From assembly GCA_016791475.1 (NCBI GenBank), contig JAEUWI010000055.1, positions 1 to 44,954 of the forward strand: DNA of 44,954 bases, written 5' to 3'. The translations under genes and the position numbers were made by a program. How positions within the stretch are numbered: position 1 is the first letter of the stretch; every line of letters begins with the position of its first letter. Shown here in pieces: positions 1,438 through 40,805 of the stretch. The notes beneath the pieces are model-generated. The model saw nothing but the letters and a program-made list of their open reading frames with translations, was not told the origin of the DNA and made no database searches. Source of the stretch: Candidatus Hydrogenedentota bacterium. Its GTDB lineage: Bacteria; Hydrogenedentota; Hydrogenedentia; Hydrogenedentales; JAEUWI01.

Positions 1438-1452
1438 GCAGGGACCGGACGA

Positions 1453-1568
1453 GGGGACTGACTCACCCGGCACACGTAGCCAATTCGAACACATGATTCA
1501 GGTCGAGGCGCTGGCCGTCCCCTGAATACCGCCTTTAAGTCATTGCCGCTTGGGTACGGCCAGTCCCC
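1453..1568. repeat. REP/MITE-like element bounded by GGGGACTG inverted ends
   Basis: GGGGACTG at 1453-1460 is repeated in inverse orientation as CAGTCCCC at 1561-1568. The next bases are also related: ACTCACCC on one side and, on the opposite strand, GCCGTACCC. The right end touches the stop codon of the DUF1854 gene. The 116-bp span carries no ORF and sits between convergent genes, so it could also act as a terminator. A weaker related motif, GGGACTGACGCGG, occurs at about 25120. Confidence 0.5.
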
Positions 1569-2074
1569 TAGTCCACAAACATCGCAATCTGCTTCCGACT
1601 CTGCTTGTCCAGCCCCTTCCAGTCGTGAATTACATACACATCGCCCGCCACATCGGTGATGAGCAGTCCACTCGGCGGGAGCAACTGGGGGTGGTCATCC
1701 ACTTTGGTCTGAAAACTGCGTGGCCCCTCGGCACAGGTCACCACCCAATGGCGGATTTCAAACTCCTTGCGCACCTGCGTGATCCGGATAATCTCGAAAG
1801 CGAAAGCCGCTTCGCGCAGGGCATGCCGCAACACCGCCCGAGTCTCGCCATCCACGTCGTCGAGCGAGGGGATGAGCGCCACTTCTTTATCGTCTTCGCC
1901 GCGCAGCGACACAAAGGTGCCCGGTGCGGTCCAGGGGAAGCACGTGCCGACGCGCACGATGCACTCGTGCCCCGCCCACGCCGCGCGATAGCGCCCGTCC
2001 TCCGCGCGTGTGACACGCAACTCCGAGAGGGTCACCGGTGCTTTGGGAATATCTATGTCTTCGTTTGCTGCCAT
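1568..2074 (-). CDS. DUF1854 family protein, ABC-exporter partner
   Basis: This 168-residue soluble protein matches the DUF1854 pattern: an N-terminal acidic segment, a GHECIVRVGTCFPWTAPG core, a conserved SLRGEDDKEVALI strand and a C-terminal GLLITDVAGDVYVIHDW segment. No catalytic residues are evident. It follows the ABC exporter gene with a 59-bp gap on the same strand, so the two are probably one transcript. In some beta-proteobacteria DUF1854 proteins pair with the same kind of exporter near cyanophycin genes. No cyanophycin gene is visible here, so a role in peptide or amino-acid-polymer export is only a hint from that association. It ends in the GGGGACTG inverted-repeat element. Confidence 0.75.
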   Translation of the reverse strand: MAANEDIDIPKAPVTLSELRVTRAEDGRYRAAWAGHECIVRVGTCFPWTAPGTFVSLRGEDDKEVALIPSLDDVDGETRAVLRHALREAAFAFEIIRITQVRKEFEIRHWVVTCAEGPRSFQTKVDDHPQLLPPSGLLITDVAGDVYVIHDWKGLDKQSRKQIAMFVD

Positions 2075-2133
2075 TTAGCCTGTCTCAAAAATTTCCTGCC
2101 GTCCCTGCAACCGTGTCAGGCGATCAGCCTTCG

Positions 2134-4407
2134 TCACGCAATATACATCTCGTGCAGTTCCTGCTGCATGCGCACCAGCCGCGTATACACACCCTCGGGA
2201 TTGTCCAACAGTTCCCCATGGGTGCCCTCCTCCACGATGCGCCCTTCGTCCACCACAAACAGGCGGTTGGCCCGGCGCAGCGTCGAGAGGCGGTGCGCGA
2301 TGGCAAACACCGTCCGTCCCTCCACCAACTTGTCCAGCGCCTCCTGAATCTTGTGTTCCGTCTCCGTGTCCACGCTGCTCGTCGCCTCATCCAGTATCAG
2401 GATGCGCGGATTGCACAGAATCGCGCGCGCGATGGACACGCGCTGGCGCTCGCCGCCCGAAAGCGTGTGTCCGCGTTCGCCGACCACGGTGTCGTAGCCC
2501 TGGGGCAATTGGCAGATGAAGTCGTGGGCGTTAGCCGTCCGCGCCGCCGAGACCACCGCCGCCAGATCGGCCTCCGGCATGCCATAGCGGATATTGTCCA
2601 GGATCGACCCGTGAAACAGATGGGGATCCTGCAACACAATGCCCAATTGCCTGCGGAAATGACCCAGATCGAGATCGCGCACATCCACGCCGTCAATGGC
2701 GATGCGGCCGTGGGTTACATCGTAGAAGCGGCTGATCAGATTCGTAATGGTCGATTTGCCGGCACCCGAAGGCCCCACCAGGCCGATCATCTCGCCCGGC
2801 TCCACCCGGAAGGAAACACCCTTGAGAATCGAACGAACCCCGTCATACCCGAAGCTCACCTGGTCGAATTCCACGCGGCCCAGCACCGGATCAAGCCGTA
2901 CCGCATCCTCTTTGTCGCGGATCTCCGGCTCCGTATCGAGAATCTCGAAGACCCGGTGGGCCGAGCTCGTCGCGCGATTTAAAATGAAGGTCATCCGACC
3001 CAGCACTTCAATCGGCTGCATGTACATGCCCATGTAGAGCGCGAAGGACACAAAAACGCCCACATTCAGCGGCGCGGCGGTGGGGGAGTAGCCCAGCAGC
3101 CGCGGCATGGCAAAGATCCACACCCCGAGGGTCATGCCCTGAACCGCCAGCCAGAGAAAGGGCCAGAAGCTGGTCCACGTGTGATGGATCTGGTTAAAGC
3201 TCTCGCAGGCGGCATCGTTGCGAAGATCGAAGCGGTTCCGCTCGCGCCCCTCCTGATTGAAGGCCTTCACCACGCGAACACCCGGAATGGCGTCCGCCAG
3301 CACCGCCGTCACCATGCTCCACCGCCGCCACGCCCGGATGAACAGCCCCTGCATCACGTTTCCGTAGTAGTAGAGCAAAAGCAGGATAAAGGGCAGCGGC
3401 AGGGTCATCACCAGGCCCAGCTTCCAATCGAGGGTGATAAGCATGGCGCTCAGCCCGCACAGCGTGAGCAGGGCAATGACAAAGTCGATGCTGCCCCAGG
3501 CCAGGAACTCCCAAAGCCGGTCCGTGTCGGAGCTGATGCGGCTGATGAGACTGCCGGTCTGCTTGGAAGAGTAAAAGCCCAGGCTCAACTTCTGCAGGTG
3601 GCTGTAAGCCTCCCGTCGCAGGTCACGCGCTATAAACTCGCCGAGCATCGCCATCGTCCGCATCCGCACCCAGAAGCCAAACTGGATTCCGCAATAGGTC
3701 AGCGCCAGCAGCACTATCGTCCATAGGGCCTCAGGCTTCATGTCAAGCGCGGCACGTTCCCCCGCCTGAACGGGACGCACGATGGAATCCAGAAGGTGGC
3801 CGGTGAGATAGGGGGGGACCAGCAGCAGTGCCGTAATCGCAAGCGCGGACAGGATACCTGCCGACACCCGTAACATATAGGGGCGCATGTAGCCCAGCAG
3901 CCGCCACAGCACCGATGTGCTGTCCTCCGAAATCGACGCCTGCGCTGTTTCGATCGGTTGCAACAGCCCGCGCTGATACAGCGCCTCCGCCGAACTCTCC
4001 GGTGCCGCGCCTTCGGGGTGTTCCAGAAGATACTTGATCCCCTCCATCGCGTGGCGCTGCCGATGGCTGTAGTGCAGGTGCGCCAGCGCCTCGCCACTTT
4101 CACGTCCGAGCAAAAACAACTGGCTGCAACTCAAGCCCGTTACCGTCTGCACCTCGCCAATCGCATCCCGCGCAATGTGGGTCGAAATGGAAAGAGCGTC
4201 CCCATCCGCCAGGTAGATGCTGGCGCGCGTAAGCACCACCCACGTTGGTCGTTGCGCAAGCGCCCCATCCAAATCGGCAAGACCATACAACACGACGGGA
4301 TCACCGGGTGATGCCGAAGTTATTTTCCGCACAATCGCATCGGGCAACGCCGCAGGCTGCCGGGTATAGTGTTGGATGCGCTCAGAACTCGTCGACTGCT
4401 TGATCAT
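2134..4407 (-). CDS. ABC exporter, fused permease and ATPase, with N-terminal PH-like domain
   Basis: This is a type IV (ABCB/MsbA-like) half-transporter of about 757 residues that exports an unknown substrate with ATP. About 160 N-terminal residues precede the membrane domain and are not part of the standard exporter; their strand pattern (WVVLTRASIYLADGD, then SQLFLLGRESGEALAHLHY) resembles a bacterial PH-like domain. Six membrane helices follow. The nucleotide-binding domain has Walker A GPSGAGKST, signature LSGGERQR, Walker B ILILDEATSS and the H-loop IAHRLST, all intact. The ATG at 4407 was preferred, but an in-frame GTG at 4446 is possible and neither has a good ribosome-binding site. 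It is cotranscribed with the DUF1854 gene downstream. Confidence 0.85.
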   Translation of the reverse strand: MIKQSTSSERIQHYTRQPAALPDAIVRKITSASPGDPVVLYGLADLDGALAQRPTWVVLTRASIYLADGDALSISTHIARDAIGEVQTVTGLSCSQLFLLGRESGEALAHLHYSHRQRHAMEGIKYLLEHPEGAAPESSAEALYQRGLLQPIETAQASISEDSTSVLWRLLGYMRPYMLRVSAGILSALAITALLLVPPYLTGHLLDSIVRPVQAGERAALDMKPEALWTIVLLALTYCGIQFGFWVRMRTMAMLGEFIARDLRREAYSHLQKLSLGFYSSKQTGSLISRISSDTDRLWEFLAWGSIDFVIALLTLCGLSAMLITLDWKLGLVMTLPLPFILLLLYYYGNVMQGLFIRAWRRWSMVTAVLADAIPGVRVVKAFNQEGRERNRFDLRNDAACESFNQIHHTWTSFWPFLWLAVQGMTLGVWIFAMPRLLGYSPTAAPLNVGVFVSFALYMGMYMQPIEVLGRMTFILNRATSSAHRVFEILDTEPEIRDKEDAVRLDPVLGRVEFDQVSFGYDGVRSILKGVSFRVEPGEMIGLVGPSGAGKSTITNLISRFYDVTHGRIAIDGVDVRDLDLGHFRRQLGIVLQDPHLFHGSILDNIRYGMPEADLAAVVSAARTANAHDFICQLPQGYDTVVGERGHTLSGGERQRVSIARAILCNPRILILDEATSSVDTETEHKIQEALDKLVEGRTVFAIAHRLSTLRRANRLFVVDEGRIVEEGTHGELLDNPEGVYTRLVRMQQELHEMYIA

Positions 4408-4456
4408 GTGATACTGCCCGTGATGCTGGATGTGGCTCTTCCTCACCTGAACGGCC

Positions 4457-4486
4457 AGTATGCATACATTTTCGACGCCAACGCAA
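4457..4486 (-). promoter_or_regulatory. candidate promoter for the ABC exporter / DUF1854 operon
   Basis: On the minus strand TTGCGT (complement of 4481-4486) and CATACT (complement of 4457-4462) are 18 bp apart. Transcription would start near 4449, just before the possible GTG start at 4446. Both hexamers deviate from consensus. Confidence 0.3.
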
Positions 4487-4537
4487 CGGCCCGTAGCCTG
4501 GAGCGATCATCCCATACGCCCGCCCGATAGCCCCCAG

Positions 4538-4609
4538 GCCCCATAAGCCCCATAAGCCCCATACGCCCCATAAGACCCATAAGACCCATAAGACCCATAA
4601 GACCCATAC
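4538..4609. repeat. nonanucleotide tandem array 2 (GCCCCATAA family)
   Basis: Eight exact-period 9-bp units: GCCCCATAA, GCCCCATAA, GCCCCATAC, GCCCCATAA, three GACCCATAA and GACCCATAC. They are the same variants as array 1, some 4.5 kb away. The array sits between the exporter operon promoter region and the terminator of the first cold-shock gene. Confidence 0.95.
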
Positions 4610-4629
4610 GGATACCCCGGCAAACAAAG

Positions 4630-4662
4630 AAAGCCGGGAGGATCCCGGATCCTCCCGGCTTT
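4630..4662 (-). terminator. rho-independent terminator of cold-shock gene 1
   Basis: A 16-bp perfect inverted repeat (4630-4645 and 4647-4662, core AAAGCCGGGAGGATCC) has a single central base. On the minus strand it is followed by the T-rich TCTTTGTTTG. It lies about 300 nt downstream of the cold-shock stop codon. Confidence 0.85.
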
Positions 4663-4960
4663 CGGGTAATCAGTGTTTCTCGCCAGCCGAGGCTGGTAGT
4701 AATTCGCCGGAGCTCGGCGTCTTCAAGTGCTCAATACTGCAACACTTTCGTTCGCAATGAGGACCTTCCCAAGGCCTCCGACGCTTGGGTCGACTTCCAC
4801 CAGTCGTTGCCAATCATCCGAGAGCGGGGCGGGGCCTCATTTTGTTTCGACGAGGGGTATTGCCAGGGTATTCAAACAGCAGGATTTACGTAGGCGTAAG
4901 CAGATTGCCTGATGTCCCACAAGATACACGGATTAAACTGTTGCGAAAAGGCTGGCGATA
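4663..4960 (-). other. long 3' region of cold-shock gene 1, homologous to that of gene 2
   Basis: The 298 bases between the cold-shock stop codon and its terminator are related to 5606-5911. Two blocks are nearly identical. Bases 4666-4695 match 5610-5639 at 28 of 30 positions. Bases 4916-4940 match 5868-5892 at 23 of 25. Shorter shared stretches lie between, such as CGTCGAAACA on the minus strand. No shared intact ORF survives, which argues for a noncoding 3' UTR or a processed small RNA. Confidence 0.6.
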
Positions 4961-5161
4961 TTACGCCGAGCGGACGGAGCGGGCTTCGTCGCCCTTGCGT
5001 CCCTGGCCGATTTCGTAATGGACCTTCTGGCCTTCCGTAAGCGTGCCTTCGGAAGGGTCGATGTTCGAAATGTGAACGAACAGATCGTCTCCGCCGTTGT
5101 CGGGGTGGATGAAGCCGAAACCTTTGGTCTCATTGAAGAATTTTACGGTACCGATGGGCAT
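4961..5161 (-). CDS. cold-shock protein (CspA family), copy 1
   Basis: This 66-residue single cold-shock domain protein binds single-stranded RNA/DNA and acts as an RNA chaperone. The start is ATG at 5161 in a context of AAAGGA eight bases upstream; a longer in-frame reading exists but would add non-homologous residues. RNP1 (KGFGFI) and RNP2 (LFVHIS) are intact, and length and C-terminal QGRKGDEA match the family. The protein differs from the neighbouring copy at a minority of positions, chiefly in the linker [12 protein letters not shown]. Its leader shares GTTACACAA and GCCTCC elements with copy 2, and a 298-nt 3' region precedes the terminator. The two copies form a tandem duplication of whole transcription units. 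Confidence 0.95.
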
Positions 5162-5252
5162 TGTGTTTCCTTTGATTCTGTGTTTTTTTGGAGGCATTGT
5201 GTAACGCACACAGGAGGCACTGGTGGAAGAGCGCCTCCGCGCCATTTAGAGA

Positions 5253-5261
5253 AGTATACCA
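5253..5261 (-). promoter_or_regulatory. extended -10 promoter of cold-shock gene 1
   Basis: On the minus strand the motif TGGTATACT is an extended -10 (TGn-TATACT). No clear -35 lies 17 bp upstream. Transcription would begin near 5246 and leave a leader of about 85 nt, typical of cold-shock mRNAs whose leaders control translation. Confidence 0.5.
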
Positions 5262-5416
5262 ATATCTCACGCAAAATACTACTACGTTAAATATTTGTTT
5301 ATTTGAGGCACCCGAACCACGAAAAGCATTCGCAATCCAGAAAGTGCGCAACACCACAAAGCCCCCTCCGGGCCTCATGGCTATCGTCTTTCCAAGGCCC
5401 GTCATGCATTCAGAGC

Positions 5417-5539
5417 CCCCAAATCCAAGTCCCCAAATCCAAGTCTCTTTAGTCCTTCAAGTTTCTTAGTCCCTTAAGTCCTTTAAGTCCCTTAAGTCCT
5501 TTAACTCCCTCAAGTCCTTTAAGTCCCTTAAGTCTTTTC
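5417..5539. repeat. nonanucleotide array 3 (AGTCCTTTA/AGTCCCTTA) with a 14-bp direct repeat
   Basis: Two exact copies of CCCCAAATCCAAGT (5417-5430, 5431-5444) precede about ten 9-bp units from 5451. The units alternate AGTCCCTTA and AGTCCTTTA, with ACTCCCTCA as a variant and one 8-bp unit. The array lies upstream of cold-shock gene 1 and beyond the terminator of gene 2. Alternation gives a higher-order 18-bp period like that of array 4. Confidence 0.9.
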
Positions 5540-5567
5540 AACCACCGCCACCCCCTTCCCCCCCCCC

Positions 5568-5605
5568 AAAAAAAAATCAGGAGAACCTCTTCGGTTCTCC
5601 TGATT
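5568..5605 (-). terminator. rho-independent terminator of cold-shock gene 2
   Basis: A 13-bp stem, AATCAGGAGAACC (5575-5587) with its complement at 5593-5605, encloses a 5-nt loop. On the minus strand it runs into nine T residues (complement of 5568-5576) and then a G-tract. This is a textbook intrinsic terminator. Confidence 0.93.
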
Positions 5606-5911
5606 CGATGTAATCGGTGTTTCTCGCCAGCGGAGGCTGATGGTTAATCGCCGAGAGCTTGACGTATGAAAGTGCCCAGTACTGCTACACTCTTATTCGT
5701 AAACCCACCTTATACCCTTGAAATCCAGGAACGCCGAAGACCTCCACCAGGCAATTTCGGGCGTCAACAGATTCGCGGGCATAGCGCGGTATTCTGTTTC
5801 GACGATGTGTACGTATCGGTTCCTGGCGCCGCTCCACCAGCGCGGAGAAGCCATCCATTCACCGTAGTCCACAAGATACACAGATTAAACTGGTTGGGAA
5901 GCGTTCCAGAA
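5606..5911 (-). other. long 3' region of cold-shock gene 2
   Basis: These 306 bases separate the second cold-shock stop codon from its terminator and are homologous to 4663-4960. A 62-codon GTG-initiated frame (5693-5881) exists only in this copy; the corresponding frame in copy 1 starts with the same VYLV but stops after 30 codons at VETK. This could be a decaying small gene or chance reading of a conserved RNA. Confidence 0.55.
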
Positions 5912-6112
5912 CTACGCGGAGCGCACTTCGCGGGCTTCAGGTCCCTTGCGACCCTGGCCGATCTCGTAAGAGACCTTCTGGCCTTCCTTCAGCAGTCCTT
6001 CGGACGGGGAAACATTGGAGATGTGGATGAACAGGTCATCTCCGCCGTCGTCCGGATTGATGAAACCAAAACCCTTTTGCTCATTGAAGAATTTTACGGT
6101 ACCTGTGGGCAT
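5912..6112 (-). CDS. cold-shock protein (CspA family), copy 2
   Basis: This 66-residue cold-shock domain protein binds nucleic acid as an RNA chaperone. ATG at 6112 follows AAAGGAAAAGAAA, a clear ribosome-binding site. RNP1 KGFGFI and RNP2 LFIHIS are present. It aligns end to end with copy 1 without gaps. The leader (complement of 6113 to about 6230) can fold through CAGTGG and CCACTG and contains GTTACACAA, also present before copy 1, so shared post-transcriptional control is likely. An intrinsic terminator lies 306 nt after the stop. Whether expression is cold-induced cannot be told from sequence. Confidence 0.95.
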   Translation of the reverse strand: MPTGTVKFFNEQKGFGFINPDDGGDDLFIHISNVSPSEGLLKEGQKVSYEIGQGRKGPEAREVRSA

Positions 6113-6279
6113 TTTCTTTTCCTTTAGATTCTAGTGTTATCTACTTGTGTAACAGAAAACCAGTGGCGGCGGTGGAGGCACACCACTGATCCAGGGAAAA
6201 AGTTTAGCAGGTTTTTCCCATAATTGCTACAACTTTTATCAGCCCCCGAGGGCCTCGAATTTCCCCGGCGCGACCGCCC

Positions 6280-7398
6280 TCAGCGCTCCGAAAGCGCGGG
6301 AACCGGACGCTCCGCGTGCCCCGTGTAGATGCTGATCGGGCGGAAGATGCGGTTGTGGCGCGCCTGCTCCATGATGTGGGCGCTCCAGCCCGTCACGCGC
6401 GCCGCCGCAAACAGAGGCGTATACACGTCTATCGGAAGATCCAGCAGGTAGTAAACCAACCCGCAGGGATAGTCCACATTCGGATATATCTTCTTCTGCT
6501 CCACCATCGGCTTCTTCACCGCATCGTAAATCGCCATCCAGTTCTCCTGGCCCTTCTGCACCGCAAGCTTGCGCAGTTTGTCTTCCAGAATCACCGCACG
6601 CACGTCGCCATCCCGGTAAACCCGGTGGCCAAAGCCCATCACCAGCTTCTTCTGCGCCAGCGCTTCCGCCACCCAGGCCGACGCCTCTTCCGGCGTCTTG
6701 AATTGCTTCAACATCTCCATCGCCGCCTCGTTCGCGCCGCCGTGCAGCGATCCCTTCAGCGCACCAATCGCCCCCGTGATGGCCGACACCATGTCGGACT
6801 TCGTGGAGATAATTACCCGGCCCGCGAAGGTGCTGGCGTTGAAATCATGCTCCGCATACAGCACCAGCGTCAAATCCACGAGCTCGGCCGACAGATCATC
6901 CGGCACTTCGCCATGGCACTGATACAGCAGTTGCGCCGCGTGGCTCAATCCCGGCTTCGGCGCAATCGGCTCTTTGCCGTTAAGCAGCCGGAAACGCGCC
7001 GCGATGATCCCCGCGATCTGCGCCGTCAGCCAAAGGCCCCGCTGCCGGTCCGCCGCCTCGTCGTCCCCCGATATCGGGTCAAAATGGCCCGTCAGCGACA
7101 CCATGCTGCGGAGCACATCCATCATGGAGTGCTTCGCCGGAATATCGCGAAGCGCGCGCAGCACCGGCTCGGGAAGGGGGCGGTACTCGTCCAGCGATTG
7201 CTTCAACGTGGCCAGTTCCGCCGCCGTGGGCAGTTCGCCGAAAAGAAGCAGGTGCGCCGTCTCCTCAAAACAAACCTTCTCCGCCAGGTCCTGGATCGTG
7301 TAACCCCGATAGAGCAGTTTTCCGTTCGTAACCACACCGATCGTGGTCTCGCCCGCGATGACCCCGGCCAATCCCGGGCTGTATGCCACTTCACTCAT
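6280..7398 (-). CDS. citrate synthase / 2-methylcitrate synthase
   Basis: This 372-residue cytosolic enzyme condenses acetyl-CoA (or propionyl-CoA) with oxaloacetate. Type I citrate synthase motifs are visible: SLHGGANEAAM near residue 218 with the first catalytic His, MGFGHRVYR near 251 with the second, and NVDYPCG near 306 carrying the catalytic Asp. Length fits the short archaeal/Gram-positive/PrpC type rather than the 430-residue Gram-negative hexameric type, so citrate versus methylcitrate preference is unresolved. The start MSEVAYSPG at 7398 follows AAGGAGAG; the longer frame to 7455 lacks homology. No prpB or prpD neighbour is present, which mildly favours the TCA-cycle role. Confidence 0.92.
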   Translation of the reverse strand: MSEVAYSPGLAGVIAGETTIGVVTNGKLLYRGYTIQDLAEKVCFEETAHLLLFGELPTAAELATLKQSLDEYRPLPEPVLRALRDIPAKHSMMDVLRSMVSLTGHFDPISGDDEAADRQRGLWLTAQIAGIIAARFRLLNGKEPIAPKPGLSHAAQLLYQCHGEVPDDLSAELVDLTLVLYAEHDFNASTFAGRVIISTKSDMVSAITGAIGALKGSLHGGANEAAMEMLKQFKTPEEASAWVAEALAQKKLVMGFGHRVYRDGDVRAVILEDKLRKLAVQKGQENWMAIYDAVKKPMVEQKKIYPNVDYPCGLVYYLLDLPIDVYTPLFAAARVTGWSAHIMEQARHNRIFRPISIYTGHAERPVPALSER

Positions 7399-7584
7399 GC
7401 ATGCTCTCCTTCCGCTGCTGCGGTTCTTTCCGCTACCTTGGACAGGGACAGGCAACGATCCGTTTCGACCGGAGCCATATTTTGAATCGCCGATGGGCCC
7501 TGACCTCCCAAGTCTACAGGCTGCCCTTTTTGAATAGGCAGTGTCAATGCTTTAGTCATTAAGAATTTCAATAGTCAATATGCA

Positions 7585-8724
7585 TCAGGGATGGGGTGCG
7601 GAAGCTTGCCCTCGATACTGCGGCGCCAATTCAGGGAAGGGTGCCCGACGGCACGTGGCCGGAGCCGACGTGCCGGCGAAATGGGCCGAAGCCGCTTCAA
7701 GAAGCACCGCGAAATCCTCGGTAAGTTGGTCGTGCCCGCCCTGTCGCACGTGAATCTGGTTATTCCCGCCCGCACCGAGATAATCGTAGACCGGCTGCGC
7801 CGCCTGCCACCCGTGCTGCGTGCCCTCGGGATTGGCCCACTGATCGCCGAAGGCGTCCGTCGAAAGTACCGGTCGGGGTGCGATGATCGCCCGCAGAAAA
7901 TGTTGATCAAACGGCAGGGTGCTCACGTTGTCGCCAAAACGCCCGAAATCCGCCTGAAACCAGCTCTTGAAGCGCGCGGGCTCCGTGATGAGCTTGAGCG
8001 TCTCTATGCCCTTCGGCGCATGGCGAAACACCGCCGCGCCGCCCGCGCCCGATCCGTTCGGCGCTACAAAGGCAAACCGCTCGTCCAGCGCACCCGCGAG
8101 CAGCGCCGCCTTGCCCGTCCGCGAATGCCCGGTGATCACCGTTCGCTTCGGGTCTATCTCGGGAAGGGTCACCAGATAATCCAGCGCGCGGCACGCGCCC
8201 CAGGCCCACACGGCGATGCTGCCCCAGTCGCACTCGGGATAGGCCAATTGCGCCGGGCCCGCTTCGTCGTAGCCTTCCGTGTCGGGATCAAGGCTGGTCT
8301 GGTCGAGGCAGGCAAAGGCAAAGCCCGCCCCATTCGCCGCCGGGGCATGCTCTCCGCCCAGACCAAAGCGCAAGATCAGCGGCATCGGCCCCGACGACCC
8401 TGAGGGAAGATAGAGATGCACCGTCGTGCTCAGGGATTGCTCCGGACCGAATTTAATCTTTACCGACTGAAACGTGGAAGCCCCCTCGAAATGCGTCCCC
8501 GACTCCAGCACCGCGTCCAGCGCCACATTCCCCGGCGCAGGGGGCACGTGGCCATACTCGTATTTCAAAAGCAGCTCCAGCATCTCCCCACGGCGCGCGG
8601 GCCATTCATCCGGCGACGCCACACGGCGTCCATCGAGGTACTGGAAGGGATCGGGAAGCTCCGTAGTAGCGGGGAGGGAATCGGGGCCGCCGATGAGGGC
8701 GAGTAGGCAGATGATAAGGTTCAT
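7585..8724 (-). CDS. secreted glucuronoyl esterase-like protein (CE15 type)
   Basis: This exported alpha/beta hydrolase of about 379 residues resembles carbohydrate esterase family 15, which cleaves esters between lignin alcohols and glucuronic acid on xylan. After a signal peptide (MNLIICLLALIGG) come LPDPFQYLDGRRV, the nucleophile motif GHSRTGKAALL (Ser near residue 196), an oxyanion-side SGAGG and the C-terminal His in GGHDQL near 329. The start at 8724 has GGAG twelve bases upstream and gives a good signal peptide; an ATG at 8784 would add 20 polar residues. The C-terminal tail after FAGTSAP is Pro/Arg-rich and not conserved in the family. It fits the polysaccharide-degrading character of the region, though substrate is inferred. 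Confidence 0.8.
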   Translation of the reverse strand: MNLIICLLALIGGPDSLPATTELPDPFQYLDGRRVASPDEWPARRGEMLELLLKYEYGHVPPAPGNVALDAVLESGTHFEGASTFQSVKIKFGPEQSLSTTVHLYLPSGSSGPMPLILRFGLGGEHAPAANGAGFAFACLDQTSLDPDTEGYDEAGPAQLAYPECDWGSIAVWAWGACRALDYLVTLPEIDPKRTVITGHSRTGKAALLAGALDERFAFVAPNGSGAGGAAVFRHAPKGIETLKLITEPARFKSWFQADFGRFGDNVSTLPFDQHFLRAIIAPRPVLSTDAFGDQWANPEGTQHGWQAAQPVYDYLGAGGNNQIHVRQGGHDQLTEDFAVLLEAASAHFAGTSAPATCRRAPFPELAPQYRGQASAPHP

Positions 8725-31778: not shown

Positions 31779-32846
31779 TCAAGCCCCCGAAAACACCCGT
31801 ATGTGCCGCGGTCGCACATAGACCGTGCTGCCCACCTCGATGCGCATCGTGCCGAAGCGTTCCTGCGATACCTCCGCCGCCAATTCCTGGCCGTCACTCG
31901 TCTTCAGTTCCACCCGCACCAGCGACCCCGCCGACTGCACGCGCACCACCGACGCCTCCAGCGAAGAATCGCCTTCCTTTTTGGTGTCTATAGTCAGATC
32001 ATGGGGCCGAACAAACACCCGCGCATCGCCAACGACCTGCTGACGCGCTTCGGGGTAGGGCAGCGCCATTGAACCAAACTGCACCGTGCCGGAATCCACG
32101 CGACCGTGGAAGTCGTTGGTTTCGCCCAGAAAGCGCATCACGAATTCGGTTTTCGGGTGGTGGAACACCTCGTCGGGCGTGCCTACCTGTTCGATCCTTC
32201 CGCCATTCATCACAACGATCCGATCCGCCACTTCCAGGGCCTCGTCCTGATCGTGGGTCACGAATACACTGGTTACGTGGATCTCGTCGTGCAGACGACG
32301 CAGCCAGGCCCGAAGTTCCTTGCGCACTTTCGCATCCAGCGCGCCGAAGGGTTCATCCAGCAGGAGCACGCTGGGCTCGACGGCCAGAGCGCGGGCCAGG
32401 GCCACACGCTGCCGTTGCCCGCCGGAGAGCTGGTGCGGATAGCGCCTGGCCAGTCCGTCGAGCTGCACGAGCTGGAGCAATTCATGTACGCGCGCTTCGA
32501 TTGCCGCCTTTGCCGGCCGTGTCGCCCGTGGACGCACGCGAAGCCCAAACGCGACATTTTCAAAGATCGTCATGTGGCGGAACAGCGCGTAATGTTGGAA
32601 TACAAAGCCCACGCGGCGCTTGCCCACCGAAACCCGGGCCACATCTTCCTCGTGAAACAGGATCTTGGTCTCGGGATTCGGGTCCGGAATCTCCAGGCCC
32701 GCGATAATCCGCAGCAGCGTTGTCTTGCCGGATCCGGAGGGCCCCAGCAGGGCCACCAGCTCGCCCGTATTTACCGTCAGGGATACATCGTTCAGCGCTC
32801 GAAATGTGCCGAAGGTTTTGGTGACATTTTGAACTTCAATACTCAT
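31779..32846 (-). CDS. cysA: sulfate/thiosulfate ABC transporter ATPase CysA
   Basis: This 355-residue ATPase powers sulfate or thiosulfate import with CysT and CysW. Walker [11 protein letters not shown]-loop [12 protein letters not shown], signature LSGGQRQR, Walker [12 protein letters not shown] and H-loop [15 protein letters not shown] are intact. A C-terminal regulatory (TOBE) region follows ([12 protein letters not shown] to [13 protein letters not shown]). The ATG at 32846 follows AGGAG eight bases upstream; an adjacent TTG at 32849 is the only alternative. It is the last gene of the operon, 30 bp after cysW, with an intrinsic terminator beyond. Confidence 0.96.
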
Positions 32847-32876
32847 CAATCAAACTCCTGTGCGAATGGGGCGCAC

Positions 32877-33743
32877 TTACGATGCGGACTTGCTGCCCTC
32901 GTGGGCCAGCCGTTCTACGATGGCCTTCAGCACGAGCGTCACCAGCGCCAGCAGGGCCAGCACGGACGCCGCCGCAAAGGCCGCGACGAAGTTGTATTCG
33001 TTGTACAGAATCTCCACGTGGAGCGGTAGGGTATTGGTCTTGCCCCGGATGTGACCGGAGACCACCGACACCGCGCCGAACTCGCCCATGGCTCGGGCGT
33101 TGCACAGGATGACGCCGTAGAGCAGGGCCCACTTCACGTTGGGCACCGTGACCCGCCAGAAGGTCTGCCAGCCCGACGCGCCCAGCGAAAGCGCCGCCTG
33201 CTCGTTTTCCGTGCCCTGCTCCTGCATGATGGGGATCAGCTCCCGCGCCACAAAGGGAAAGGTCACAAACATCGTCGCCAGCACAATCCCCGGCACCGCA
33301 AAAATTATCTTGATGTCGTGCTCGCTCAGCCACGGGCCAAGCCAGCCCTGAAGCCCGAAGAGCAACACGTAAATCAGGCCGGAAATCACCGGAGAAACCG
33401 CATAGGGCAAGTCGATCAGCGTAATCAGGACGCTCCGACCCCAGAACTGAAACTTGGCCAGCGCCCAGCTCGCGGCCAGGCCAAAGACAAGGTTCGACGG
33501 CACGGAAATGCCCGTCACCAGCAGCGTCAGTTTGATGGCCGACAGGGCCGCCGGATCGTTGAAGCTCTTGAAATAGGCCCCGATACCCTTGCGCAGCGCT
33601 TCCGTGAAGATGGCCGCCAGCGGCACAAAGAGGAAAAAGGCCAGGAACAGCACGGTAATCGTTATAAGAAGAACGCGGAGCCACCGCGGCTCGGTAATGG
33701 CCGCCTGGGGCTTGGGAAAGCGCTGAGAGGCTGCGGTCGCCAT
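32877..33743 (-). CDS. cysW: sulfate ABC transporter permease CysW
   Basis: This 288-residue inner-membrane permease has six helices, beginning [22 protein letters not shown]. The ABC-coupling EAA loop lies in [22 protein letters not shown], and the sulfate-permease motif [19 protein letters not shown] is typical of CysW. Its ATG overlaps the cysT stop as TAATG (33741-33745) and is preceded by GGAGG, so translation is coupled. It partners with CysT to form the channel. Confidence 0.96.
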
Positions 33744-34585
33744 TATGCGTGTCCTCCCTGATAGTTGCGAACGCTCCACCACTGGAGCAGGTTAATGAGC
33801 AGCAGCAACACGAAGGACACCAGCAGCATTACCACGGCAATCGCCGTGGCGCCCGCGTAGTCAAACTGCTCCAGCTTTGTAATGATCAGCAGGCTGGTGA
33901 TCTCCGTCTTCATGGGCATGTTGCCGGAGATGAACACCACCGAGCCGTATTCGCCGATGGCCCGCGCGAAGGCCAGCGCAAAGCCCGTCAAGAGTGGCGG
34001 TACGAGTGGGGGAAGGAGCACGCGGAAAAACGTCTTGAAGCGCGTCGCGCCCAGACTGGCGGCGGCTTCCTCCAGCTCCTTGTTCAAATCTTCCATCGCC
34101 GGCTGGAGGGTGCGGACGACGAAGGGCAATCCAATGAAGGTAAGGGCAATGCCCACGCCCAGAGGCGAGTAGGCGGCTTTGATACCCAGCGGCTCCAGCA
34201 ACTGGCCTATCCAGCCGTTCTTGGAGTAGATGGCCGTGAGCGCAATCCCCGAAACCGCCGTGGGCAGGGCGAATGGCAGGTCCACCGCCGCGTCCACAAT
34301 GCGCTTTCCGGGAAAGGTGTAGCGCACCAGCACCCACGCCGTGACAAACCCGAAAACGGTGTTTACCAGCGCCGCGGCGAATGACGCGCCGAAGGTCAGC
34401 TTGTACGATGCCAGCACGCGGGCCGACGTGACCGCGGCCCAGAATTCGCTCACGCCCATGGTGGCGGTCTTCGCGAAAAGCGCCGAAAGGGGAATCAGCA
34501 CGATCAGGCTCATGTACAGGAGGGTAAAGCCCAGGGTCAACCCGAAGCCGGGCAACACCGTGTGGGACTTGAGCAACTTAAACAA
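33743..34585 (-). CDS. cysT: sulfate ABC transporter permease CysT, TTG start
   Basis: This 280-residue inner-membrane permease has helices such as [24 protein letters not shown] and a coupling loop in [23 protein letters not shown]. The conserved [29 protein letters not shown] is a CysT hallmark. The start codon is TTG, with GGAG seven bases before it; the next Met would remove the first membrane helix. The weak start codon and the hairpin just upstream both suggest lower expression than Sbp. It overlaps cysW by one base. Confidence 0.95.
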
Positions 34586-34605
34586 GATTTCTCTCCTCGT
34601 GGGGT

Positions 34606-34641
34606 GGGCCCGAAGGCGCGTGGTGCATCGCCTTCGGGCCC
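34606..34641 (-). promoter_or_regulatory. intercistronic 13-bp hairpin between sbp and cysT
   Basis: GGGCCCGAAGGCG (34606-34618) and its exact complement (34629-34641) enclose a 10-nt loop. On the transcribed strand no T-tract follows. Such stems after binding-protein genes stabilise the upstream mRNA or attenuate transcription, so Sbp is made in excess over the permeases; this role is inferred. Confidence 0.75.
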
Positions 34642-34662
34642 GTCGACCGTTTCAATCGGGAA

Positions 34663-35745
34663 TCAATTCCCCGGTGCATAGATGGCGTCAAAGATGCCGC
34701 CGTCGTTGAAGTGCTTTTCCTGCGCCACGTCCCAGCCGCCGAACACGCCGTCGATCGTCACCAGGTCCAGTTCTTTGAAGCGGGCAAGATCCTTGGGATC
34801 CGCGTGCTTCGGTTCGATCGGGCGATAGAAGTGCTTCGCGGCAAGGCGCTGGCCAACGGGGGAGTACAAGTACTTCAGGTAAGCCTCCGCAACCTTCTCC
34901 GTGCCCTTCTTCTTCGCGTTCTTGTCCACCACCGTCACGGGCGGCTCCGCCAGAATGCTCAGCGACGGATACACGATTTCAAACTTGTCCGGTCCCAGTT
35001 CCTCGATCGACAGGAAAGCCTCGTTCTCCCACGCCAGAAGTACGTCGCCAATCTCCCGCTGCACAAACGTCGTGGTGCTGCCACGGGCGCCGGAGTCCAG
35101 CACCGGCACGTGGGAAAAGAGCGTCTTAACGAAGGCCTGCGCCTTCGCGTCCGCCGCCTTCACCTTTTCCGCCTGCTTGGGGTCCTTCAGCACGGCCAGA
35201 TCGCCCAGTTCCTTTTTCAGCGCGTACGCCCAGGCCGCCAGGTAGTTCCAGCGCGCGCCACCCGACGTTTTCGGATTCGGCGTGATCACTTCCACGCCCT
35301 CCTTCACCAGATCGCCCCAGTCCTTGATGCCCTTCGGGTTGCCCTTGCGCACCAGGAATACAATCGTGCTGGTATAGGGGGAGCTGTTGTGGGGCAGCCG
35401 TGTCTGCCAATCCTCGCCGAAAAGCTTGGCTTCCCGGGCGATGGCGCTGATGTCATAGGCCAGGGCCAGCGTCACCACATCGGCTTCCAGCCCGTCGATA
35501 ACCGCCCGCGCCTGCTTGCCCGCGCCGCCATGGGACTGCTGGACGGTAACGTTGTCGCCCGTCTTTTCCTTCCAATACGCCGCGAAGGCTTCGTTGTACT
35601 CCACGTAGAGCTCCCGCGTCGGATCGTAAGACACGTTGAGCAGTTCGATATCCGCGGCCTGGGCGCCGCCGGCCGCGATGCCCGCCAGCGCAAGCGCCAC
35701 GCCCGCATTGCGCAGGGCTTGTTTAAGGTTCAGGGTTAGTTTCAT
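34663..35745 (-). CDS. sbp: sulfate-binding periplasmic protein Sbp
   Basis: This 360-residue periplasmic binding protein carries the signal peptide [20 protein letters not shown], cleaved after AQAA. The mature N-terminus [19 protein letters not shown] is the Sbp/CysP signature. [45 protein letters not shown] and [12 protein letters not shown] are typical of the sulfate-binding type. The ATG at 35745 follows AGGAG eight bases upstream. It lies between cysK and cysT in a sulfur operon. A strong hairpin follows its stop codon. Sulfate versus thiosulfate preference cannot be told from sequence. Confidence 0.96.
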
Positions 35746-35881: not shown

Positions 35882-36874
35882 CTACAGTCCCGCCCCGATC
35901 TCATAGGCCTGCTGGAGCAGGCTCTTCACATCGGTGTGCTCGTAGGCGTCCGAATAGAGGGGCGTCGACAGGTACCGCTCGCCCGCGCTGCACGCGAAGG
36001 TCACGATGGTCTTGCCCTCATACTCAGGACGCTGCGCAACCCGCACCGCGGCACACACATTCGCACCCGTACTGATTCCCCCCAGGATCCCCTGAGAAGA
36101 AGCCAGAATTCGCGACCAGCCCGCCGCATCATCGCTGGTGACGGTTTCCACCGCGTTCAACAGCGACACATCCAGCGTTTCCGGAACGAACCCTGCGCCG
36201 ATGCCCTGAATCCGGTGCGGACCGGGCTTGCCGCCGGAAAGTATCGGCGACTCCCTGGGCTCCACCGCAATGGCAAGCACACCCGGATTCTGGCCTCGAA
36301 GATAGCGGGTCGTTCCCGTGATGGTGCCCCCTGTGCCGACACCCGCCACGACCACATCGACCGTGCCTTCGGACGCCCGCCAGATTTCCGGACCCGTTGT
36401 GCGTTCATGCACCGCCGGGTTCGCCGGGTTGCTGAACTGGCCCGGTGTCCAGGCGTGCGGCGTGTAGCGCGAAAGCTCTCGGGCCCGCTCGATCGCGCCG
36501 CCCATGCCCTTGTGGCTCGGCGTCAGCTCCAGGCTGGCGCCCAGTGCGCGCAGCATGTGGCGACGCTCGATGCTCATCGTCTCCGGCATCGTCAGCGTCA
36601 GCCGGTAGCCCCGTGCAGCGGCAATAAAGGCAAGCGCGATGCCGGTATTGCCGCTGGTGGGCTCAATGATATGCGTATCCGGTGTAAGGAGTCCCTCGGC
36701 CTCGCCCGCTTCAATCATCGCGCGCCCGATGCGGTCCTTCACGCTGCTCAGCGGGTTGAAGAACTCCAGTTTAAGAAGGACCCGCGCCCGGCGCTCGCGC
36801 GCGGGAATAAGCGCGCTCACATCCACCAGCGGTGTCTCGAAAACTGTATCCACGATGCTCTTCTTGACCGACAT
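35882..36874 (-). CDS. cysK: cysteine synthase (O-acetylserine sulfhydrylase)
   Basis: This 330-residue PLP enzyme makes cysteine from O-acetylserine and sulfide. The PLP lysine is K46 in LSSVKDRIG, the acetylserine loop is TSGNTG at 73-78, and the phosphate-binding loop is VGVGTGGTITG. The active-site SGGKPGPHRIQGIGAGFVP follows. The ATG at 36874 has AGGAG eight bases upstream. It sits 22 bp after the 55-codon gene and before sbp. CysK in a sulfate-uptake operon lets imported sulfur be fixed without the sulfite reductase genes, which are not in this window. Confidence 0.95.
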   Translation of the reverse strand: MSVKKSIVDTVFETPLVDVSALIPARERRARVLLKLEFFNPLSSVKDRIGRAMIEAGEAEGLLTPDTHIIEPTSGNTGIALAFIAAARGYRLTLTMPETMSIERRHMLRALGASLELTPSHKGMGGAIERARELSRYTPHAWTPGQFSNPANPAVHERTTGPEIWRASEGTVDVVVAGVGTGGTITGTTRYLRGQNPGVLAIAVEPRESPILSGGKPGPHRIQGIGAGFVPETLDVSLLNAVETVTSDDAAGWSRILASSQGILGGISTGANVCAAVRVAQRPEYEGKTIVTFACSAGERYLSTPLYSDAYEHTDVKSLLQQAYEIGAGL

Positions 36875-36896: not shown

Positions 36897-37064
36897 CTAC
36901 TTGTTCTGCTCTTCCTGGAGGCCCAGGAGGATGCCGATGCTCTCGCCAAACACCCCGAGGGCCGCCGCAAAGGCGCCGAACACGGCCACCTTCTGCTGGG
37001 TCTCGATCAGGGAAGCCTGGGCGGGGGCGGAAAGGATGCGGCTGGAGGTCTTGATGTGTTTCAT
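36897..37064 (-). CDS. 55-aa uncharacterised protein in the sulfur operon
   Basis: This small gene is too short for ordinary ORF thresholds but well supported. ATG at 37064 follows AAGGA eight bases upstream, codons are GC-rich at the third position, and the gene fits the operon with a 22-bp gap to cysK. The protein starts MKHIKTSSRILSAPAQ, a basic N-terminus. It continues with the hydrophobic run KVAVFGAFAAALGVFGESIG and ends EEQNK. The run is long enough for one membrane helix or an amphipathic helix. No family was recognised. A role in regulating the transporter or CysK is possible but inferred only from position. Confidence 0.72.
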   Translation of the reverse strand: MKHIKTSSRILSAPAQASLIETQQKVAVFGAFAAALGVFGESIGILLGLQEEQNK

Positions 37065-37124
37065 GTGAATATTCCTTCTGTCTTCGGTTGTTGATTGAAA
37101 GTTGTTTATCGTAGTCAGGCGACT

Positions 37125-37145: not shown

Positions 37146-38600
37146 TTAGAATTCAAACTGAAAGCGGGTCTGCACCACGTCGAAATCGCCTTCATACAAG
37201 TCGTGGTCAATCTCGTTGTGAATGTAGTTTGTGGAGACCTTGACGTTCTGGTTCAGGAACCAGTTCACGCCCAGCGTCAGGCTGCTGTGTTCGCCGCCCC
37301 GCACCGGACCATCGCTGATGTCCACGGCTCCGTAACGCGCGGCCACTTCCCAGGCGCCCCAACCGCGCTCTTCACCGCGCAACGTGAAGGGATGCTTCAC
37401 CACGGGGTTCTCGATGCGTGCACTGTCGTGGCGGTAGACGCGATTCTCGCCGGTCAGGAAGTAACCCGCCTGGACGTAGTACCCGTCGAAGCTGAGGTCG
37501 CCGCCGAGTCTGGTCTCCACGTCCGAGCGAACGTATTCACTCTGGAATGTAAGCGGCCCAAAGATGCCGGCGAGTTCCAGGCCATACAGATTGATGTCGT
37601 CCGCATGGGTATCGCGGAAACGGAAACCTGCCGGAAACGCGTCCGGATTCACATAACGGAACAGAGAAACGCGGCTTTCGGGTCGCACGCCATAGTTCAC
37701 CACAGCCCCATCGGGATTGCGGTGGCTGAAGGCCGCGCCCAGGTGCAGCAATTGCCGGCCCTTTTCCGCGTAATACGGCAGACCCGTCACACGGCCCGTG
37801 ATCTGGTACCCCTGATCCTCGTCGGAGTCGTTGCTGCTCGGCCAGTCATCCGTCTCCTTGAACGCGCCAAGGGCCCAGGTCAACCGTTCCGCCTTGGGCT
37901 CGCCCAGCAGCGCATCGCTGAGCTGGATGCCCGCGTTGCGCGAAGGCACGAACACGTCCAGCAACGGATTTTCCAGGAACTGCCACGCCGTGATCGCATT
38001 GATCTCGTCCAGGCTGAAAGGTTCCTTGAAATGACCCACCTTCACATCAAAGGCGCGGTCGCCGCCGTAGGGAACTCCGTTGTACTGGAACCAGACATCG
38101 CGAAACTTCGGCGTGTCCTCGCCGTTCTGTCCCGCGAAGTCGAACTCCGCCGTGTACGTGAAATCTTCCCACGCCTTGCCCTGAAGCTGGATGCGCGCAA
38201 AGCGGAAGTCCGTTCCGTCCTGCTCGTCGCCGAGAGCGCCCTTGAGTTCGCGGTCCTGATTGAACCAGGCCCAGTCGTGTCCCAGTCGCACCCGTATGCG
38301 GCTCTCAAAAGCGCCGTCATCGGACTTTATCCGAAGTCCCTCGCCATTCAAACTCACCACCGGCTGTTTGTCCTTCACGCTCTCCGCCTTCGCCTGTACC
38401 GCATCGACCTTCTCCACGATGCTGTCCTGGTCCGCCGCGTAGCGCGCCTCAAACTGGTTCAACTGCCGCGTCAGCGTTTCCACCTGCTCCCGCAGCGCGG
38501 CCACTTCTTCCGGCGTCGGGGTTCCCGGTGGCTGGCCCCAGGCCGTCGTGGCGATGCCCGCCGCGGCCAGGGACAAGCCCCACCAATTCCTCGTTCTCAT
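37146..38600 (-). CDS. outer-membrane porin, OprP/OprO-like, with N-terminal coiled coil
   Basis: This outer-membrane protein of about 484 residues resembles the phosphate-selective porin O/P family. A signal peptide (MRTRNWWGLSLAAAGIATTAWG) is followed by a coiled-coil segment EEVAALREQVETLTRQLNQF, which trimerises and may tether to peptidoglycan. The 16-strand barrel follows, with alternating aromatic strands, RLGHDWAWFNQ, FRFARIQLQGKAWEDFTYTAEFDF and the terminal Phe in TRFQFEF. The ATG at 38600 follows AAGGAG; an ATG at 38618 lies inside that site. Its place in a sulfur operon suggests an anion (sulfate or organosulfonate) route; the family name does not prove phosphate selectivity. Confidence 0.85.
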   Translation of the reverse strand: MRTRNWWGLSLAAAGIATTAWGQPPGTPTPEEVAALREQVETLTRQLNQFEARYAADQDSIVEKVDAVQAKAESVKDKQPVVSLNGEGLRIKSDDGAFESRIRVRLGHDWAWFNQDRELKGALGDEQDGTDFRFARIQLQGKAWEDFTYTAEFDFAGQNGEDTPKFRDVWFQYNGVPYGGDRAFDVKVGHFKEPFSLDEINAITAWQFLENPLLDVFVPSRNAGIQLSDALLGEPKAERLTWALGAFKETDDWPSSNDSDEDQGYQITGRVTGLPYYAEKGRQLLHLGAAFSHRNPDGAVVNYGVRPESRVSLFRYVNPDAFPAGFRFRDTHADDINLYGLELAGIFGPLTFQSEYVRSDVETRLGGDLSFDGYYVQAGYFLTGENRVYRHDSARIENPVVKHPFTLRGEERGWGAWEVAARYGAVDISDGPVRGGEHSSLTLGVNWFLNQNVKVSTNYIHNEIDHDLYEGDFDVVQTRFQFEF

Positions 38601-38722: not shown

Positions 38723-38917
38723 TCAGTGGCCCCCGGTGGCCAGTCGGATTCGCTCGCGCTTGTCAATCATCACCACGCGCCCGTCGTGGACCGTCACTTC
38801 CACAGACCCATAGCGCAGGCTGCCGATGGCCACCAGAATCGCCTCGGTGATGGACGGGTCGATGCGCTGGGATGCCTCAGGCCCCGGTTTTTTCTCCTGG
38901 CTTACTTCGCTGCTCAT
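38723..38917 (-). CDS. oscA: OscA/YezD-like small protein (DUF2292)
   Basis: This 64-residue protein carries the DUF2292 core ILVAIGSLRYGSVEVTVHDG followed by RVVMIDKRERIR. OscA of Pseudomonas is a member of this family, is cotranscribed with sbp and is needed for sulfur supply under chromate stress or on organosulfur sources. Here the gene heads the operon containing sbp and cysTWA, matching that association. The ATG at 38917 has GAGG four bases upstream; the longer frame to 39034 runs across the sigma-54 promoter and is rejected. Its molecular activity is unknown. Confidence 0.85.
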   Translation of the reverse strand: MSSEVSQEKKPGPEASQRIDPSITEAILVAIGSLRYGSVEVTVHDGRVVMIDKRERIRLATGGH

Positions 38918-39002
38918 ATTTCCTCGATTCTCATGGGGTGTTTTACGGGTCCCGATCAGGGCGATCGCCATAGGTTGACCGTCCTGAAAGGGATGCCTGT
39001 AG

Positions 39003-39018
39003 AGCAGCCAGCGTGCCA
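39003..39018 (-). promoter_or_regulatory. sigma-54 (RpoN) promoter of the sulfur operon
   Basis: On the minus strand TGGCACG-CTGG-CTGCT matches the -24/-12 consensus TGGCACG-N4-TTGCA, with perfect GG-N10-GC spacing and one mismatch in the -12 half. The predicted start near 38991 leaves a 74-nt leader before oscA. The adjacent divergent gene encodes a sigma-54 activator. Confidence 0.85.
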
Positions 39019-39107
39019 GTTTCGAGATGGCCACCTGGCGGCGGGCGGCGTCGTTCGGTGTTGTTTGTTTAAGTCTTTGCTATCAGATGGCTTACGTGAG
39101 TGTGCTC

Positions 39108-39186: not shown

Positions 39187-39248
39187 AAGATCCAGCAAAT
39201 ATGCCGGGTAAAAATAACAGGCATTCGCATTGTCCAGTACATTTGCGG

Positions 39249-39254
39249 TATACT
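39249..39254 (+). promoter_or_regulatory. -10 element implying a leaderless regulator mRNA
   Basis: TATACT ends six bases before the ATG at 39261, so transcription would start at or next to the A of the start codon. No Shine-Dalgarno precedes that ATG, which fits a leaderless message. The -35 is poor (TTGTCC only 13 bp upstream). Confidence 0.4.
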
Positions 39255-39260
39255 CCCGCC

Positions 39261-40805
39261 ATGAAAAGACACCACGAACTCCTGCTCTCCGTGTGGCGCG
39301 AAGCCTGCCGCCATATCGAACTTGATGAATCACTCGCCCGGATCGCCCCCTTGCTCGCCGATCCCATGGCGCTCCATGGCATGCAGCTATTCCATGTGGA
39401 CCCCGATCTCAAGCGCGTCGAGCGCCTCGGGGCCGTGCTCGAAGACGACGAGGCTACCCTGCCCGCGCCCGCCCTCGATGCGCGGCGCGTTGCCACCCTT
39501 GCCCGTTGGTGCAAGACAGGCACCCCCGTCGCCTTCAATGCCGCCGCTCCCGTACCCGCCATTCCCTTGGAGTTGTGCGATGCACTCAGCAATCAGATCC
39601 TCGCCTTGCCGCTCCGCTCCGAGCACGATACCCTTGGCGTACTCATGCTGGGTGCCCAACCGGGCCACCGCTTTGGCGATGCCGATGCGCGCCTCGCGGA
39701 GTTACTCTGCGAGCCCCTGGCCGTCGCACTGGAAAATGATCGGCGCCTCAATGAGCTTATCGCGCTGCGCGAGGCCGCTGAAGCCGACAAGATCAAGCTG
39801 CTCCATCGCCTCGGCCGAGAGGCCTTGACCAACGAGATCATCGGCGCCAAAGGCGGGTTGCGCTCCGTACTCGAGCGGGCCGCCCTCGTGTCCCGCTCCG
39901 AGGTGCCCGTGCTGATTTTCGGCGAGACCGGCGCCGGCAAAGAAGTCGTCGCCCGCGCCATTCACGACAGCTCTCCCCGGGCCAACGGCCCCTTCATCCG
40001 CGTGAACTGCGGTGCAATCCCCCATGAATTGATCGACTCCGAGCTCTTCGGCCACGAGAAAGGCAGCTTCACCGGCGCCACCGGTTCAAGGCGCGGCTGG
40101 TTCGAACGCGCCGACGGCGGCACGCTGTTCCTCGATGAAATCGGCGAGCTTTCCGCCGCCGCACAGGTCCGCCTCCTCCGCGTCGTGCAGGAGGGTGTCT
40201 TCGAGCGCGTGGGGGGGGAGCAGTCGCTCCATGTGAACGTGCGCATCGTCGCCGCCACCCACCGCGACCTCGCCATGATGGTCCGGGAACACAGCTTTCG
40301 CGAAGACCTCTGGTATCGCATCGCCGTCTTCCCCATCATGCTGCCACCCCTCCGCGAGCGCCTGGAAGATATCCCCGAACTGGCGGCCCACTTTGCGGAC
40401 CGGGCCGCGCGCCGCTTCGGACTTCGGCCCCAGACGCCCACCGAGGCCGATCTGGCCCTCCTCGCGGCCTATTCGTGGCCCGGCAACGTCCGCGAGTTTG
40501 CCTCGGTGCTGGATCGCGCCGCCCTCCTGGGAGATGGCGCAAGGCTGGAAGTCGCCGCCGCCCTCGGCATCGCGCCCGTGGGCCAGCGCGCCTCTGGCCA
40601 GGCCGTGGCGCCAGATATCGCCGAGACTGGCCCCATCGTCACCCTCGACGAAGCTATGAAACGACACATCGAACGCGCCCTCGCCCACACCGGCGGAAAG
40701 ATTGAGGGCAAGGGCGGCGTCGCCGACCTCCTCGACATCAACCCCCACACCCTGCGCGCCCGCATGCGCAAACTCCGCGTCGAGTGGAACAGCTTTCGGA
40801 AGTAA
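39261..40805 (+). CDS. sigma-54 enhancer-binding regulator (GAF-AAA-Fis)
   Basis: This 514-residue activator has three domains. The N-terminal GAF-like sensor spans about residues 1-170 (ELLLSVWREACRHIELDESL, ILALPLRSEHDTLGVLMLG). The AAA+ domain has Walker A FGETGAGKEV, a sigma-54-contact loop GSFTGA (Ser replacing Ala of GAFTGA), Walker B GGTLFLDEIGEL and arginine-finger region FREDLWYRI. The C-terminal Fis-type HTH reads GGVADLLDINPHTLRARMRKL. It should hydrolyse ATP to open the sigma-54 promoter of the divergent sulfur operon. Its signal is unknown; sulfur starvation is inferred from the target. The longer frame to 39201 is less likely. Confidence 0.92.
   Translation: MKRHHELLLSVWREACRHIELDESLARIAPLLADPMALHGMQLFHVDPDLKRVERLGAVLEDDEATLPAPALDARRVATLARWCKTGTPVAFNAAAPVPAIPLELCDALSNQILALPLRSEHDTLGVLMLGAQPGHRFGDADARLAELLCEPLAVALENDRRLNELIALREAAEADKIKLLHRLGREALTNEIIGAKGGLRSVLERAALVSRSEVPVLIFGETGAGKEVVARAIHDSSPRANGPFIRVNCGAIPHELIDSELFGHEKGSFTGATGSRRGWFERADGGTLFLDEIGELSAAAQVRLLRVVQEGVFERVGGEQSLHVNVRIVAATHRDLAMMVREHSFREDLWYRIAVFPIMLPPLRERLEDIPELAAHFADRAARRFGLRPQTPTEADLALLAAYSWPGNVREFASVLDRAALLGDGARLEVAAALGIAPVGQRASGQAVAPDIAETGPIVTLDEAMKRHIERALAHTGGKIEGKGGVADLLDINPHTLRARMRKLRVEWNSFRK

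Follow-up and report, generated by a model that had tools for sequence, protein, structure and literature searches.

A Conserved Porin-Linked Micropeptide Gene with a Leader-like N-Terminus in Candidatus Hydrogenedentota

Introduction

Tiny proteins with a hydrophobic helix, such as AcrZ, KdpF, and MgtS, are found beside transport genes. QhpC is the gamma subunit of quinohemoprotein amine dehydrogenase, and QhpD is the radical-SAM enzyme of this system. The leader of QhpC is required for the binding of QhpD (PMC7876137), and the leader of CteA is bound as a beta strand by the RRE of CteB (PMC8326336). In the selidamide systems, GNAT enzymes are encoded alongside RiPP precursors and transporters (PMC9505594).

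In this report, we describe a 55-codon open reading frame from a Candidatus Hydrogenedentota bacterium (assembly GCA_016791475.1, contig JAEUWI010000055.1). The window is the entire stretch of 44,954 nucleotides that was analyzed. A first-pass annotation, made from these letters, had called the reading frame an overlooked gene within a sulfur operon and had likened its product to the small membrane regulators of transporters.

Results

The micropeptide gene starts with the ATG at position 37064, ends with the TAG at 36897–36899, and encodes a product of 55 residues, MKHIKTSSRILSAPAQASLIETQQKVAVFGAFAAALGVFGESIGILLGLQEEQNK. The clear ribosome-binding site of the first-pass annotation was located (Table 1), and such a site precedes nearly every homologous copy. 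The GC contents of the three codon positions are 0.62/0.40/0.89; the third-position value, which agrees with the GC-rich wobble codons described earlier, compares with 0.78 for the porin gene and 0.77 for cysK. The spacing to the ATG of cysK is 22 nt, as had been reported, and 81 nt separate the stop codon of the porin gene from the micropeptide gene. An overlapping reading frame is present on the plus strand at 36901–37068, and conservation is confined to the minus frame. This frame is kept, uninterrupted by stops, at about 24 other loci of Ca. Hydrogenedentota. The differences between close pairs of homologues fall mainly at third positions (dN of 0.16–0.25, dS from 1.1 to saturation), and the resulting dN/dS of about 0.07–0.2 indicates purifying selection. 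The homologue search and the substitution analysis had both been proposed as checks of the gene, and its coordinates were found to be exact. No family was matched by the 55-mer at E ≤ 1 in Pfam and NCBIfam, and no convincing match was obtained in PHROGs, which agrees with the earlier remark that the product belongs to no recognized family; a literature search, which was not exhaustive, found no description of these peptides. Since the frame, the ribosome-binding site, and purifying selection are conserved across genera, it is well supported that this is a real and selected coding gene that was overlooked in annotation.

Table 1. Features of the micropeptide gene and the surrounding operon (window coordinates)
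Feature	Coordinates	Strand	Evidence
55-codon micropeptide gene (porin-linked MKH-leader peptide)	36897..37064	-	ORF, RBS, GC3, porin-side homologues, purifying selection
Ribosome-binding site AGAAGGAA	37072-37079	-	sequence; 7 nt ahead of micropeptide ATG
Leader-like N-terminus, residues 1-17 MKHIKTSSRILSAPAQA	37014..37064	-	position-specific score 13.1; pLDDT 54-66
Core, residues 18-55, SLI/SLL..QQK motif	36900..37013	-	alignments A1 and A2; AlphaFold2 helix
Porin_O_P outer-membrane porin, conserved partner, upstream of micropeptide	37146..38600	-	PF07396, E=1e-51
cysK, cysteine synthase A, local insertion	35882..36874	-	TIGR01139, E=5.6e-122
sbp, sulfate ABC transporter substrate-binding protein	34663..35739	-	NF008022, E=3.8e-148
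cysT, cysW, cysA (permeases and ATPase)	31779..34585	-	BPD_transp_1, ABC_tran + CysA_C_terminal; synteny
DUF2292/OscA-like small protein, operon head	38723..39034	-	PF10055, E=1.4e-15

The assignment of the gene to a sulfur operon holds for the window, but cysK is not a conserved neighbor and the porin is. In most neighborhoods of the relatives the gene order is porin, peptide, sbp, cysT, cysW, and cysA, and the insertion of cysK was seen solely in the window among the relatives compared. The sulfate operon (window 31779–35739) is missing from six other genomes of the same family, and the orthologues were therefore compared beyond the window's own genus and family. The absence of the operon from these six genomes, together with the insertion of cysK, points to acquisition by transfer or to repeated losses. 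The leading gene of the operon encodes the DUF2292 protein, which resembles the sulfur-starvation protein OscA (NF033785, E=6.5e-10, below the cutoff of the model) and is conserved ahead of the porin in several relatives. Beside the operon, on the plus strand (39201–40805), lies the divergent gene of a sigma-54 activator that has a GAF domain; homologues of this activator were found near the same operon at two other loci (L031 and L038), and it may thus regulate the operon.

Protein searches of the relatives returned homologues of the micropeptide at 33–50% identity, and a profile built from 11 of these (alignment A1) gave matches down to E=1e-24 in other genera. Homologues were found in Ca. 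Hydrogenedentota only, with or without the sulfate operon, and the weaker profile matches that lack this operon again adjoin Porin_O_P or Porin_5 genes. A survey that took as its starting point the 45 Porin_O_P genes of 68 Hydrogenedentota genomes revealed a linked peptide at 22 of them, by a hand tally over the individual porin-locus results; about half of these genes are without one. The peptide is usually located 20–132 nt downstream of the porin; it precedes the porin in genomes G027 and G034, and the porin of G008 carries a tandem pair. Two divergent copies (G021 and G046) were added by the survey. The second Porin_O_P gene of the window's own genome (L177, G000:C14) has no linked peptide. 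No linked peptide was found at some 70 porin loci examined in other phyla; a locus labeled Nitrospiraceae (L097) belongs to genome G068, which shares matches with the Hydrogenedentota genome G054.

The conserved frame, the purifying selection, and the position beside a porin place the micropeptide in a Porin_O_P-linked coding family. Since many homologues adjoin Porin_O_P genes without any sulfate operon, it is well supported that the conserved genomic partner is the porin. Two other candidates were rejected: cysK, which is lacking between the peptide and sbp in relatives, and sulfate uptake as a general partner, given the copies beside porins without a sulfate operon.

The basic, hydrophobic, and acidic segments that had been described earlier are all present in the product: it begins with basic residues, continues with a hydrophobic helix, and ends in an acidic tail. 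The net charge is +3 over residues 1–20 and –2 thereafter. AlphaFold2 predicts residues 1–18 to be disordered (pLDDT 54–66) and residues 19–54 to form a single helix (pLDDT about 90), which is the default outcome for short peptides. The best 19-residue Kyte-Doolittle mean is 1.86, which is borderline for a transmembrane segment, and the homologue in G025 is less hydrophobic (1.20). No invariant Cys, Ser, or Lys marks a modification site in the core.

The basic N-terminus appears to be more than the flank of a membrane anchor. Residues 1–17 fit the leader-like motif MxH[ILV][KR]x[IV][ST]…PxxA of 31–70-residue peptides that are clustered with RiPP-type genes, and residues 1–8 reappear at the front of other small reading frames. 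A start-site pattern composed of a ribosome-binding site and ATGAARCAYNTNMR gave 280 matches in the 68 genomes versus 20 for the reversed control; the sampled matches were mostly peptides of 31–70 residues with the front MKH[ILV][KR]x[IV][ST]…P.[KR]A. These peptides bear one of several conserved C-terminal types, namely WRAW.DFR..KKNE, GLCTNIT.DLQARFCF, VPLFQNKDPQNP, GQIL.., and SLL..QQK, the last being the type found next to porins. The same pattern gave 29 matches in 49 genomes of other phyla (a count that leaves out G068), mostly in longer proteins, several of which are QhpC. Leader peptides are dispersed through the genomes, and many lie far from the cluster described below. In the window's genome, leader-type small reading frames (L079, L081, and L084) are located away from both porins and the cluster. 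A further leader-type peptide (L072, G004:C661, about 4250–4430) has a Cys-containing core ending in GSGSGG and adjoins a gene for a protein with a Golvesin_C domain.

A scoring matrix was constructed from 59 cluster peptides, with 205 ordinary gene starts as the background. The window reading frame scored 13.1, a value reached by none of the 205 ordinary starts (maximum of 2.7), and all 19 porin-linked peptides outscored the best of them. The leader is short. The cluster peptides had been gathered partly by the leader pattern; the score thus measures the fit to the motif and not its origin. His3 is invariant across the porin-linked family, and the PxxA element is common to the porin-linked and cluster peptides. 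The leader is probably common to the porin-linked peptide and the phylum-wide superfamily, as judged from these alignments and scores. In its small size, its leader held in common with other peptides, and its separate core, the micropeptide agrees with what is expected of a RiPP precursor.

The cluster has the gene order of tandem leader peptides, GNAT, GNAT, CPBP, ABC ATPase, ABC permease, and, last, a protein of about 600 residues. The two GNATs are acyltransferases, the protease is a CPBP/Rce1-like (CAAX-type) membrane protease, and the ABC proteins form an exporter. The cluster peptides directly adjoin the RRE/GNAT/ABC genes in many genera. The window's genome has a complete cluster (L250, G000:C81:10000–26402, at 1243–8510) with six tandem leader peptides, three of which have GTG starts and one of which is without a clear MKH start. 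The N-terminal region of the 600-residue protein aligns with the leader-binding RRE of CteB, and the protein further carries a SPASM-like CxxCWAxxLCGGG motif and ends in a GNAT domain. The link to CteB (5WGG) comes from a PDB profile search, with E=1.2e-41 across RRE to SPASM; no Pfam PqqD or radical-SAM match was obtained. The conserved radical-SAM CxxxCxxC is missing from the alignment of this protein (A4), and the protein is thus not a SCIFF/CteB radical-SAM maturase, although the RRE and SPASM regions align.

The 600-residue protein is present in 62 of the 68 Hydrogenedentota genomes. No linked peptide was found at the five porins of genomes without it (G009, G028, G032, and G035), compared with 22 of the 40 porins in genomes with it (one-sided p=0.03, not corrected for phylogeny); this co-absence comes from a single family (f4) that has few porins. 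The genomes are draft MAGs, and absences from them are therefore weak evidence. Genome G009 still has other leader peptides, and for this reason its lack of the 600-residue protein may be an assembly gap.

Discussion

We propose, with a probability of about one-half, that the 55-codon gene encodes a RiPP-like precursor micropeptide that is co-expressed with a Porin_O_P porin, and that the helical portion of this peptide works in the envelope together with the porin. We infer its modification and function from sequence and gene context. The leader would be bound by the RRE of the 600-residue protein, or by the stand-alone GNATs, in trans. The micropeptide may then receive an acyl or acetyl group, be cut near the conserved PAxA site (PAQA/S), and be exported. 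The helical SLL..QQK part would subsequently be membrane-associated or periplasmic and work with the neighboring porin, for example as an aid to porin assembly or in porin gating under scarcity of sulfate or phosphate. Neither a modification gene nor an RRE gene was found beside the porin-linked copies, which thus lack the adjacency expected of RiPP precursors, and modification in trans is assumed for this reason. More tentatively, and with less confidence than for the peptide itself, we suggest that the phylum has an undescribed RiPP-like system in which the pseudo-radical-SAM/GNAT protein and the GNATs modify dispersed precursors in trans, some of these being porin partner peptides and not secreted antibiotics.

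The main rival to this proposal is that the micropeptide stays unmodified and acts as a small protein of the membrane or periplasm, bound to the porin or to the sulfate ABC transporter in the manner of AcrZ or KdpF, with a plain basic flank that only looks like a leader. The predicted single helix, the change in charge from +3 to –2, the best hydrophobic window, and the conservation beside porins are all consistent with such a protein, and the micropeptide, with its borderline hydrophobicity, may be a small membrane regulator of transporters, the kind of protein to which the first-pass annotation likened it. However, the invariance of His3, the scores of residues 1–8 far above those of ordinary gene starts, the presence of the PxxA element in cluster peptides, and homologues as weakly hydrophobic as that of G025 argue against it, and we regard it as somewhat unlikely.

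A clearly lower likelihood is given to the motif being a targeting or stability signal for a partner other than the RRE and GNAT proteins, such as an envelope chaperone or protease. The dispersal of leader peptides through the genomes, many of them at a distance from the cluster, would fit this explanation, as would an RRE-containing protein that has no radical-SAM cysteines and whose catalysis is therefore uncertain; against it stand the direct adjacency of the cluster peptides to the RRE/GNAT/ABC genes and the fact that RRE domains typically bind leaders (PMC8326336). Finally, a short reading frame with no database match and a second frame on the opposite strand could be a spurious product of the gap between the porin and cysK, or a regulatory upstream reading frame without a functional product. 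This is contradicted by the conserved frame, the ribosome-binding site, and the purifying selection across genera, and is highly improbable.

Several conserved families of tiny genes, in hundreds of copies, are thus found throughout one phylum; they lie outside the curated families searched and have a common leader-like N-terminus. Their clusters include a radical-SAM-like protein from which the cluster cysteines have been lost and to which an acyltransferase domain has been added. Should the cluster system process the porin-linked branch, RiPP-type modification would serve outer-membrane nutrient uptake, beyond chemical warfare and signaling.

The micropeptide shares with AcrZ, KdpF, and MgtS its tiny size, a hydrophobic helix, and a location near transport genes. 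It differs from them in having no sequence link, an outer-membrane porin as the conserved neighbor, and a leader motif. The resemblance to the selidamides, which are GNAT-acylated RiPP lipopeptides, is in the GNATs encoded with precursors and transporters; however, the selidamide precursors belong to the NHLP proteusins and carry other leaders, and acylation of the Hydrogenedentota peptides is putative. The SCIFF/CteB (ranthipeptide) system likewise has a short precursor with an N-terminal leader, and the 600-residue partner aligns with CteB over the RRE, barrel, and SPASM regions. In contrast to CteB, this partner has a C-terminal GNAT domain in addition to the loss of CxxxCxxC, and a Cys-rich core is missing from the porin-linked peptide.

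QhpC, an enzyme subunit with Cys cross-links, has about 110 residues, whereas the Hydrogenedentota peptides have 31–70 residues and no such core; the 55-mer has no NCBIfam match, and true QhpC matches NF037958. QhpC precursors of Binatia (L270, L271, L286–L290, and L295) start with MKHLKAANxKA, and a qhpD-like gene was observed just upstream at L297. This start resembles the MKH[IL][KR]...KA leader of Hydrogenedentota, and the two systems have in common the logic of a leader combined with ABC export (PMC7876137). In the 49 genomes of other phyla, the sole match to the 600-residue RRE/SPASM protein, which is a weak one, sits just upstream of qhpC.
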